A stretch of DNA of 64,000 nucleotides from contig NZ_QNQT01000001.1 in NCBI RefSeq assembly GCF_003362805.1, forward strand, positions 496,001-560,000. The letters are read 5' to 3'. Under the pieces are notes generated by a model. It was not told where the DNA came from. It searched no databases and worked only from the letters and a program-made list of their open reading frames with translations. This document shows, piece after piece, positions 41,381-46,173 of the stretch; position 1 is the first letter of the stretch, and the number at the start of each line of letters is the position of its first letter. The position numbers were made by a program, and so were the translations under genes. The DNA is from Neobacillus piezotolerans. Its GTDB lineage: Bacteria > Bacillota > Bacilli > Bacillales > Cytobacillaceae.

Positions 41381-41458
41381 AAGGAATACTAGGTTTTTTC
41401 AGAAAGATTTCACCTTTTTACTGTCTACGTGGTAAAATGGCAGTGGAGGTGGGCGAAG

Positions 41459-41905
41459 TTGCTAGCGACTACTGAGAGAATTGAATTGCTCGAATATGCC
41501 GAGCAGCTGGGCAGGATGGTTATCGAATCCGATGTTGCCGAGCAGTATCGGCGTTGTCTATATAAATTACGTACAAGCAGGGAATCTCAAAGGAAGATTT
41601 CCCGATTCGTCAAATTGAAGGACCAGTATGAGGAGGTACAGCGTTTCGGCAAATACCATCCGGATTACAAGTCAATCATGATTCAAGTCAGGGAAGCAAA
41701 ACGGGATATGGATCTTGATGACAGGGTAGCGGAGTTCAAACGTGCGGAAACCGACCTGCAGTCCCTGCTTGACGAGATCAGCGTCATGGTCGGTGCATCC
41801 GTTTCAAAACATATTAAAGTCCCGACCGGGAATCCGTTTTTCGATACGGGATCAAGCTGTGGAGGCGGCTGCGGTTCCGGTGGGAGCTGCGGATGCTCTG
41901 CGTAA
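41459..41905 (+). CDS. ylbF: YlbF (RicF), subunit of the YlbF-YmcA-YaaT complex
   Basis: A 148-residue helical protein of the YlbF/YmcA family with RFGKYHPDYKSIM near residue 72 and a Cys-rich C-terminus (SCGGGCGSGGSCGCS). In B. subtilis YlbF, YmcA and YaaT form a complex that carries iron-sulfur clusters and directs RNase Y cleavage, affecting competence, biofilm and sporulation. TTG start (MLATTERIE), 8 bases after GGAGG; an earlier in-frame ATG lies before that site and does not resemble the family. Confidence 0.93.
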   Translation: MLATTERIELLEYAEQLGRMVIESDVAEQYRRCLYKLRTSRESQRKISRFVKLKDQYEEVQRFGKYHPDYKSIMIQVREAKRDMDLDDRVAEFKRAETDLQSLLDEISVMVGASVSKHIKVPTGNPFFDTGSSCGGGCGSGGSCGCSA

Positions 41906-42481: not shown

Positions 42482-42757
42482 ATGTTTGGGCAAAGGCAAG
42501 GTTTGGTGGTTTGGCTTTATACGTTGAAGCAGGCCAAAATGCTGAGAAGGTTTGGAAACGTCCACTATATTTCCAAAAAGCTTAAATATGCTGTCATTTA
42601 CTGCAATCAGAGTGAAATAGAAACAGTCATGGAGAAACTGCAGTCATACTCCTTTGTTAAAAAGGTTGAGCCATCTTATAAACCTTTTGTAAAAGTGGAA
42701 TATGAAAATTCGTCACCTGATAAAGCAAAAGAATATGATTACAAAATGGGTATTTAA
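42482..42757 (+). CDS. ylbG: UPF0298 protein YlbG
   Basis: A 91-residue protein with a ferredoxin-like alpha/beta layout and conserved [21 protein letters not shown] at the N-terminus and KAKEYDYKM at the C-terminus, typical of YlbG. Function unknown. AAGGGGAAAA precedes the ATG. It is followed by hairpins and the intergenic repeat. Confidence 0.88.
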
Positions 42758-42967: not shown

Positions 42968-42995
42968 AAGTGAGGGAGAACATCCCTCACTTTTT
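42968..42995 (+). terminator. Terminator downstream of the second repeat
   Basis: AAGTGAGGGA-GAACA-TCCCTCACTT with TTTTTG. Any transcript from ylbG through the repeat would end here. Confidence 0.88.
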
Positions 42996-43067: not shown

Positions 43068-43457
43068 CTACGACAGTGGAGGCAGGAAATGGTTCAAGCG
43101 GAGAATCCCAATCAGCTGCTGGTAATACAATTCAGGCTCGGCAAATAGCGAAGAGGGCTTGATGGCCAATTCGCATATATCCTTTCCATGCCTGTCCGCG
43201 GCTTCCTGAAATAGGGAGAACCGCTTGCTGGGCATTGTACGCGGATTTGGCACTCCTTCCCGGCAAATATAAATTGGCTGGAATTTCCCTTCTCCCGCCG
43301 GGTTCAGTATGATTGCGAGTGAAGTAACTTCTTTATTGCCGATAACAGTATTCAGGGCGAGGAAATGCCTGATTCGATGCGAATTTGTTTCCGCGATTTC
43401 AATCAGTTCGTACAAATCCCCGTACCCCCCGCCAAGTTCAATGAAACGCTGAATCAA
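43068..43457 (-). CDS. Conserved hypothetical Bacillaceae protein
   Basis: A 129-residue soluble alpha/beta protein (MIQRFIELGGGYGDLYELIEIAE...) with a conserved-looking ICREGVPNPRTMPSKR loop near residue 68 and a LYYQQLIGILRLNHFLPP ending. I remember similar proteins in Bacillus genomes under inconsistent names, including methylthioribose kinase; its size and lack of kinase motifs argue against that. TTG start, 7 bases after AGGGGCG. A terminator and several hairpins lie directly upstream on its strand, which may control it. Confidence 0.65.
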   Translation of the reverse strand: MIQRFIELGGGYGDLYELIEIAETNSHRIRHFLALNTVIGNKEVTSLAIILNPAGEGKFQPIYICREGVPNPRTMPSKRFSLFQEAADRHGKDICELAIKPSSLFAEPELYYQQLIGILRLNHFLPPLS

Positions 43458-43520
43458 CGAATTTCGCCCCTTTTCAATTATTCTGCTTCCCTACATTACC
43501 ACATCGCCCTTTTTGAAAAA

Positions 43521-43715
43521 AGAAAAAAACCCCGCAGGAATCCTGCGGGGTCCTTCTATATCCCACTGGGGACAGAAGGCAAAGGGAGAGGAGAAACCGG
43601 AGGAAAACTTATGGGGAAACGTAAGTTTTCTCCGCGGTTGGCAACAACATCCTCGAAATGATGTTGTTACTACCAGTATTTCCACTGAAGGCTAGGATAT
43701 ACTCCCGTTTTTCCG
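43521..43715 (-). ncRNA. Structured minus-strand RNA or attenuator leader
   Basis: Read on the minus strand, four hairpins follow each other: AACAACATC/GATGTTGTT (43643-43668), a 13-bp stem with one bulge around GGGG (43598-43634), CCTTCT/AGAAGG with inner CCC/GGG (43552-43579), and a GC-rich terminator with a T-run (43521-43550). This ends 64 bases before the minus-strand gene at 43457. It may be an attenuated leader of that gene or a free small RNA. A ylbH leader motif has been described upstream of ylbH in Bacillus, and this may be that element; the T-run argues for the minus strand. No promoter is certain. Confidence 0.5.
43523..43550 (-). terminator. Strong minus-strand terminator
   Basis: CCCCGCAGGA/TCCTGCGGGG, followed on the minus strand by seven T residues. 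No minus-strand gene ends nearby upstream, so it must terminate a non-coding or leader transcript. Confidence 0.85.
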
Positions 43716-43757
43716 GAAATTTTTCTAAAATAGAAATACAAACCGGAAAAATTAGAT

Positions 43758-43786
43758 TTGGCTGTCAGGGCCAATTGTGTTAGGAT
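43758..43786 (+). promoter_or_regulatory. Sigma-A promoter of rsmD-coaD
   Basis: TTGGCT (43758-43763), a 17-base spacer and TAGGAT (43781-43786), 37 bases upstream of the rsmD start. Confidence 0.45.
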
Positions 43787-43823
43787 TATGAAAAAAGTAT
43801 TTTCAGATTAGCGGTGATTGTTG

Positions 43824-44880
<1,057 letters not shown>

Positions 44881-44952: not shown

Positions 44953-46173
44953 TTATGGGCTTCCCCGTTTAAGCCTTTTGAATAAAATGGCTATGTAGAC
45001 GGCCAGTGCGAAAATGGTGATCAACGGGCCTGCCAAGGCAAGTTGGAAAAAGGAATGGGAAATAAGCTGTGACTGTTCCTGGAGCATGACCGGGACAGCA
45101 CCCAGTCGAGCCACGGAACCTCCTACCTTGGAATAGAACGGTTCCCACAATAAAAAAGAAAATGTGCTGGCGAAACAGCCATGCATAATTCTTGCGATGA
45201 AAAAGGGTTTAAACCGGATATCCGTTTGCGCAAGGATGCTTGCTACCTGGGCCTGGACGCTAAAACCGCTGAATGCGAGGATAAAACTTGTAACCATTGC
45301 CTGCTGTCGCAATGTCGCCTCGTGGACCTGGCTGGTGAGCTGGCTGCCGAGTGTGATCTCAAACAGGCCGGAAATAAAGGGAATGCTCAGTACTTTAGGA
45401 AAAGCCAGTGAAGAAAGGAGAAAATCCACGCCTTGTGCCAGGAAAGCTGTAACTTGAAGATGGAATAGAAGTTTGTTTACTACTGAAAACAGGATAATAA
45501 ATCCACCAATCATAAGAAGTGTCTGGATTGAAGAAGTAACCGCGTCGCCAAGCAGCTTGCCTATCGGCCTGTTATCTTTTATACGTGTCCTATGAAGGGC
45601 GGCGAGGGCCTCCCTTATTTTAAACTTTTTGTGGCGGCTGCTCCTTGTCATTCGTTCATCGTACCCATAAAATCTCATGAGAAGGCCCACGGCAATATTG
45701 CCGAGGTAATGGGAAATGGCAAGGATTACCCCCAATTTTGGGTTACCGAAAAATCCAACTGAAACAGCCCCGAAAATAAAAAGGGGATTCGAAGAATTGG
45801 TAAATGACACAAGCCTTTCCGCTTCCAACCTGGTAAGGCTGCCTTCCTGCCTAAGCCGGGCGGTCAATTTCGCACCTGCAGGGTAGCCGGAGGCCATCCC
45901 CATCGCCCATACGAAACCGCCCACGCCAGGCACTTTAAAAAGCGGCCTCATGAACGGTTCCAGGAGAACTCCTATGAATTTAACAACCCCAAATCCAATC
46001 AGCATTTCCGAAATGATAAAAAAAGGAAGCAAGGAAGGGAAAACAATTTTCCACCACATATTCAAACCCCTAACCGACGCCTGAAACGATTCCTGTGGAA
46101 AAGCGATTAAAGACGCCGCCATGAGGGTTACAGAAGCTGCTAGGAAAATTGTTTTTATTTTGGAACGGAACAT
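44953..46173 (-). CDS. ylbJ: Sporulation integral membrane protein YlbJ
   Basis: A 406-residue membrane protein with about eight hydrophobic helices and nucleoside-recognition (Gate)-like blocks: WWKIVFPSLLPFFIISEMLIGFG near residue 41 and GMASGYPAGAKLTARLRQEGSLT near 92. YlbJ is mother-cell expressed and needed for spore outer-membrane or cortex-related resistance in B. subtilis. The start ATG is preceded by GAAGGAGGC. A possible sigma-E -10 is noted upstream. Confidence 0.92.
   Translation of the reverse strand: MFRSKIKTIFLAASVTLMAASLIAFPQESFQASVRGLNMWWKIVFPSLLPFFIISEMLIGFGVVKFIGVLLEPFMRPLFKVPGVGGFVWAMGMASGYPAGAKLTARLRQEGSLTRLEAERLVSFTNSSNPLFIFGAVSVGFFGNPKLGVILAISHYLGNIAVGLLMRFYGYDERMTRSSRHKKFKIREALAALHRTRIKDNRPIGKLLGDAVTSSIQTLLMIGGFIILFSVVNKLLFHLQVTAFLAQGVDFLLSSLAFPKVLSIPFISGLFEITLGSQLTSQVHEATLRQQAMVTSFILAFSGFSVQAQVASILAQTDIRFKPFFIARIMHGCFASTFSFLLWEPFYSKVGGSVARLGAVPVMLQEQSQLISHSFFQLALAGPLITIFALAVYIAILFKRLKRGSP

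Follow-up and report, generated by a model that had tools for sequence, protein, structure and literature searches.

The ylbH leader element of Neobacillus piezotolerans is almost certainly the complement of csfG, an already described sporulation small RNA gene

The structured element upstream of rsmD (ylbH) in Neobacillus piezotolerans is almost certainly the csfG gene of this species, which encodes an already described sporulation small RNA; we place the probability of this reading at about 0.96. It was found in a window of 64,000 nt (assembly GCF_003362805.1, contig NZ_QNQT01000001.1, positions 496,001 to 560,000, forward strand), to which all coordinates below refer unless another contig is named. 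The identification is made because the Rfam family RF00516 lies on the complementary strand, because the neighbourhood is that of ylbF, ylbG and rsmD, because the element co-occurs with SpoIVA, and because of a northern blot published for Bacillus subtilis. The founding description of B. subtilis CsfG is reportedly that of Marchais et al. in 2011. An initial annotation of this locus had reported the element and inferred that it may belong to the strand opposite rsmD. Both the observation and the strand inference are correct, but the thing itself was already known. The features of the locus are the following.

41429-41905: ylbF, neighbour
42482-42757: ylbG, match to PF09902
43068-43457, minus strand: DUF7147 gene (PF23648, 183.6 bits), encoding a full-length protein; a neighbour, not part of the element
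43516-43672, minus strand: csfG small RNA gene, assigned from its fold and as the reverse complement of RF00516; predicted start near 43670, T-rich end at 43529-43516
43520-43637, plus strand: match to RF00516, 'ylbH leader' (107.9 bits, gathering cut-off 50), complement of csfG
43523-43551, minus strand: intrinsic terminator (terminator scan and fold), stem 43551-43529, then seven T
43552-43579, minus strand: hairpin 3 (fold)
43581-43596, minus strand: CU-rich run TTTCTCCTCTCCCTTT, unpaired (alignment and fold), a likely target-pairing stretch
43597-43637, minus strand: hairpin 2 (central), with a TTTCCCC loop, nearly invariant (alignment, consensus and fold)
43643-43668, minus strand: hairpin 1 (5' hairpin), outside the Rfam model, with a stem of at least 5 pairs in 140 of 140 loci
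43674-43702, minus strand: promoter-like pair GTATA-N14-GGAAATACTG, of the forespore (sigma-F/sigma-G) kind, a conserved pattern
43824-44405, plus strand: rsmD (ylbH; TIGR00095, 190.3 bits), start at 43818 or 43824, a divergently transcribed neighbour

The span first given to the element, 43457-43720, does contain it but is slightly too wide, promoter and RNA together occupying about 43702-43516. The distance to the minus-strand gene at 43068-43457, put at 64 bases, was found to be about 65. It had also been stated that no minus-strand gene ends above the element. The open reading frame list and Pfam indeed gave no recognisable minus-strand gene ending just above it; the first such gene to have a Pfam match lies past rsmD and coaD, with its end at 44953. 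This gene (44953-46173, minus strand) carries a nucleoside-recognition Gate domain (PF07670) and stands in the place of ylbJ, which we take to be the gene for the sporulation membrane protein SpoVV. On the other side of the locus, a terminator-like hairpin with a short T-run (42968-42992, plus strand) lies 3' of ylbG and faces the DUF7147 gene.

Folding of the minus strand between 43668 and 43523 gave a minimum free energy of -59.4 kcal/mol, against a mean of -35.5 for shuffled sequences (z = -6.1, 0 of 200 shuffles as good). The terminator scan of this strand extended the stem to 16 pairs at 43557-43523, with seven T at its end (tail CTTTTTTCAA); the plus-strand version of the stem, at 43529-43551, has 10 pairs and the tail CCTTCTATAT. 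Fold and scan therefore agree with the three hairpins, one of them with a 13-bp stem, and the terminator with seven minus-strand T of the initial annotation. Conservation was followed in 99 relatives of the same family, which make 100 loci with the window, and in 40 loci from other families of the class. Hairpin 2 keeps 13 pairs in the class-wide consensus, and TTTCTCCTCTCCC, within the CU-rich run, did not vary in any of the 41 aligned sequences and was unpaired in the fold. RNAalifold, applied to this 41-sequence alignment, returned a total covariation of just 0.09, and the 5' hairpin was absent from its prediction because the sequence of this hairpin is too variable for good alignment. Among the 40 class loci it has 34 distinct stems, the stem itself being kept while the sequence varies widely between families. 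The central hairpin varies so little in sequence that it shows next to no covariation.

A search of the whole window with Rfam release 15 at gathering thresholds gave a single match, full-length and on the plus strand, to RF00516, in agreement with the ylbH leader motif named by the first annotation. A permissive scan of both strands from 43300 to 43850 detected no other Rfam family above cut-off. Weak second matches to RF00516 (around 30 bits) were seen at three relatives' loci (L102-L104); they are below cut-off and none of the three has the core motif, and we took them as chance matches. According to PMC3574147, the ylbH leader family stems from Barrick et al. 2004.

The distribution of the element follows sporulation. 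We surveyed 398 genomes of the class for RF00516 (E of at most 0.001, strict filters) and for SpoIVA (PF09547). RF00516 was present in 229 of the 268 SpoIVA-positive genomes and in 1 of the 130 SpoIVA-negative ones, so that 229 genomes had both, 1 had RF00516 alone, 39 had SpoIVA alone and 129 had neither. In 193 of the 230 RF00516-positive genomes the match was above Rfam's own cut-off. In the genomes covered (398 of the class, plus 14 controls) the element is restricted to endospore formers, SpoIVA being found in 229 of the 230 carriers within the class. In the sole exception (G422) the element is just upstream of rsmD. The 39 SpoIVA-positive genomes in which the first scan gave no RF00516 were searched with our own minus-strand model, R1. 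Eight of them gave a match at E of at most 0.001, and for one (G110) the position beside rsmD was confirmed. Inspection revealed a diverged copy beside rsmD in G216 (E 0.049) and in G115; G343 (E 0.0066), G179 and G269 were assigned neither to the carriers nor to the genomes without the element. Family f18 accounts for 26 of the 39, and none of these gave an R1 match better than E 0.09 over its whole genome; in one of them (G102) the SpoIVA match itself is weak (E 1.9e-12).

One f18 genome matches the RsmD of Lysinibacillus fusiformis at 100%, and the loci around rsmD were collected as the best 80 by similarity to this protein. The element is present in 53 of these best 80 loci. The 27 loci lacking it comprise 25 from Lysinibacillus, Ureibacillus, Kurthia, Psychrobacillus, Paenisporosarcina and Planococcus, which we group together, by assumption, as Planococcaceae, and 2 from Domibacillus. 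No CsfG was detected within 1.5 kb of rsmD in any of the 25 Planococcaceae loci among the best 80. CsfG is thus apparently absent from Planococcaceae, and among the papers listed by a literature search none treats CsfG and Planococcaceae together. The two Domibacillus loci (L242 and L259) are likewise without CsfG at rsmD, among the same 80.

The gene that follows the element on the same strand encodes a DUF7147 protein, and the initial annotation had proposed that the element is a riboswitch or other leader of this gene. As such, it would be a cis-acting element, riboswitch or attenuator, controlling DUF7147. Sixty-two of the 63 genomes with DUF7147 have gene and element on one contig; in all 62 the gene is on the strand of CsfG, at most 3.5 kb away, and in 20 it begins 54-107 bases past the end of the RF00516 match, as expected of a leader. 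However, in the 42 others the distance is 323-3473 bases, and in L007, the one of these 42 loci that was inspected, the interval holds a 400-codon open frame that is oriented the other way. Co-occurrence is also incomplete: of the 101 family genomes, 100 gave a match to RF00516 (the one that did not is 66% complete) and 63 a match to DUF7147, which leaves 37 of the 100 element-bearing genomes with no DUF7147 match. The DUF7147 family was detected in none of the 14 control genomes, B. subtilis included. The gene is in turn found without the element: in 7 Planococcus or Paenisporosarcina loci, out of the 25 Planococcaceae loci among the best 80, ylbG, DUF7147 and rsmD adjoin without CsfG. The other 18 have neither ylbG nor DUF7147 within 1.5 kb. 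Finally, the promoter-like sequence and the terminator make the element a complete transcription unit. A leader controlling DUF7147 is therefore very unlikely, and this part of the first interpretation was abandoned. There is a small chance that, where DUF7147 is 54-107 bases past the terminator, read-through could bring it into the forespore programme; if so, CsfG would be one RNA acting both in trans and in cis.

The functional strand of the element is the minus strand. We searched for GTATA followed, after 14-15 bases, by at least 9 of the 10 positions of GGAAATAATG. This pattern was written after the element had been viewed, and its occurrence on the minus strand of 99 of 100 family loci and on the plus strand of none (0.4 per 100 on average in shuffled sequences) therefore indicates conservation, not an independent discovery. 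We take the pair to fit the sigma-F/sigma-G promoter consensus, an assignment that also rests on the B. subtilis csfG literature. A looser pattern was not enriched genome-wide (8 matches, against 13 for a reversed control); one of the 8 is csfG and another precedes sigG (NF006071, 431.9 bits), and a search upstream of spoIIR and gpr, also in this genome, gave nothing. On contig C35 of this genome (L154, positions 65035-65063), a forespore-type promoter pattern starts 60 bases before an open reading frame of 52 residues, for which no Pfam or NCBIfam match was obtained.

Base pairs within the 5' hairpin point to the same strand. A G.U pair on one strand is an A.C mismatch on the other, and hairpins were identified with a symmetric test in which both were scored alike. 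Read on the minus strand, the 5' hairpins of the 100 family loci had 71 G.U and 11 A.C, and those of the 40 class loci 23 and 3, from which it follows that the minus strand is the RNA. Shuffled controls leaned the opposite way, with G.U:A.C ratios of 1732:2206 (family) and 601:882 (class), and more than 2 in 50 shuffles equalled the real hairpin at 8 of the 40 class loci and at 0 of the 100 family loci. An earlier count in loose windows had given a weaker contrast (250 G.U against 164 A.C for the 5' hairpin, 417 against 74 for the terminator) and was superseded by this stricter version with its shuffle control. The covariation analysis suggested as a check thus found a nearly uncovarying consensus, but an asymmetry in the 5' hairpin that favours the minus strand. 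As for the terminator, a scan placed a stem at 137 of the 140 loci and none at the other 3; of the 137, 97 have at least five T in the eight bases after the stem when read on the minus strand, and 28 when read on the plus strand.

Rfam has the element as a plus-strand leader of rsmD, and in 98 of 99 relatives' loci rsmD does lie at most 700 bases downstream on that strand. The plus strand also folds about as well as the minus strand, and folding energy therefore cannot choose between them: in the window it reaches -62.9 (z = -5.5), and over the relatives the means are -56.1 for minus and -56.2 for plus, minus being better in 51 of 99. Nor are the counts made on each strand's own consensus structure evidence (G.U 297 against A.C 15 for minus; 143 against 59 for plus, read on plus), since each structure favours its own strand. 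The base-pair asymmetry and the T-run, however, are both on the minus strand. In B. subtilis, northern blotting did not detect the plus-strand RNA that had been supposed to be a ylbH orphan riboswitch; the reverse-complement probe gave a strong signal, consistent with CsfG (PMC3574147). Moreover, rsmD is without the element nearby in the 27 loci of the best 80 described above, and L007 keeps the element without an adjoining rsmD. It is thus extremely unlikely that the element is part of a plus-strand ylbH transcript, and the promoter-like pair, the asymmetry and the published northern all side with the original suggestion of the opposite strand. We judge the orientation of RF00516 in Rfam to be wrong. 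In L007, the place of rsmD beside the element is occupied by a gene that resembles, by eye, an FAD-linked oxidase.

A small plus-strand protein gene, suggested by GGAGG followed by ATGGGGAAACGTAAG, was also considered, as ATGGGG occurs behind a Shine-Dalgarno-like sequence in 137 of 140 loci. The frame nevertheless runs on for anything between 9 and 59 codons, and its continuation takes 26 different forms among the family loci and 37 among the 40 of the class. Over the first nine codons the third positions vary no more than the other two, and the constraint is therefore on the nucleic acid. With divergent continuations and no third-position freedom, this frame was rejected, and the chance that it is a gene is negligible.

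We return to csfG. Its anatomy, strand, conservation, promoter-like sequence and co-occurrence with sporulation were computed here for N. piezotolerans and its relatives, and its transcription in the forespore by sigma-F and sigma-G is predicted after the B. subtilis literature. In PMC8216469 and PMC9147052, both of which cite the original work, CsfG is under sigma-F and sigma-G control in the forespore. An RNA of about 150 bases would be made from the minus strand, from the forespore-type promoter at 43702-43674 to its own terminator near 43516-43523. It would fold as three hairpins and the terminator, leaving CU-rich stretches unpaired: the TTTCCCC loop, and TTTCTCCTCTCCC between hairpins 2 and 3. 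In the forespore, these would most likely pair with target mRNAs at their purine-rich ribosome-binding sites, and such pairing may lower the translation or the stability of the targets, in the manner of RoxS and FsrA.

Forty-one genomes were searched for the exact complement of a 13-base part of the CU run. Of the 48 matches obtained, 7 are elsewhere if one per genome is csfG itself. Four of the 7 were inspected: L277 has its match 18 bases ahead of an ATG, in L282 and L297 the match falls within a reading frame, and in L284 it is outside any. Among the perfect complements in these 41 genomes, with 4 of the 7 off-locus matches inspected, no recurring or convincing CsfG target emerged. Papers of 2021 and 2022 (PMC8216469 and PMC9147052) say that CsfG has no known target, and one of 2025 states in a single sentence that CsfG regulates mRNAs. 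For the question of what CsfG regulates, the SpoIVA-bearing Planococcaceae, in which no CsfG was detected, would form a natural comparison group.

Elsewhere in the literature, a B. licheniformis RNA-seq study lists a CsfG transcript at ylbG and ylbH, and PMC8501984 and PMC10267692 do no more than cite the CsfG paper. Rfam carries the leader family on the wrong strand, as this locus shows, and genome papers have repeated this. PMC4342826 listed the motif without a regulated gene, noting an opposite-strand CDS that separates it from the gene that comes next; in PMC4634765 validation of the motif failed, which was put down to low expression. Three points keep some interest: the wrong orientation in Rfam, the targets of CsfG, and its apparent lack in Planococcaceae.

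Compared with known systems, the element covers the same DNA as RF00516, with a full-length match, but the Rfam family is built on the complementary strand, does not extend to the conserved hairpin at the 5' end and has the type of a cis-regulatory leader. With B. subtilis CsfG it shares its place in the ylbG-ylbH interval, on the strand opposite ylbH (rsmD), its conserved CU-rich stretches and structure, its own terminator, a forespore-type promoter-like sequence and an occurrence tied to sporulation. The published gene is likewise encoded between ylbG and ylbH and conserved in CU-rich stretches, and its RNA co-purified with Hfq (PMC3574147). Unlike in B. subtilis, csfG of N. piezotolerans has a DUF7147 gene downstream on its own strand. 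The C-rich regions of CsfG have been likened to those of RoxS and FsrA (PMC4409812), a likeness to CsfG that PMC8216469 draws as well, and the element does have C-rich unpaired stretches in common with RoxS/RsaE and FsrA, which are C-rich small RNAs of Bacillus; it is however no member of the RsaE family by sequence, RF01820 scoring just 20.4 bits at the element against a cut-off of 79.
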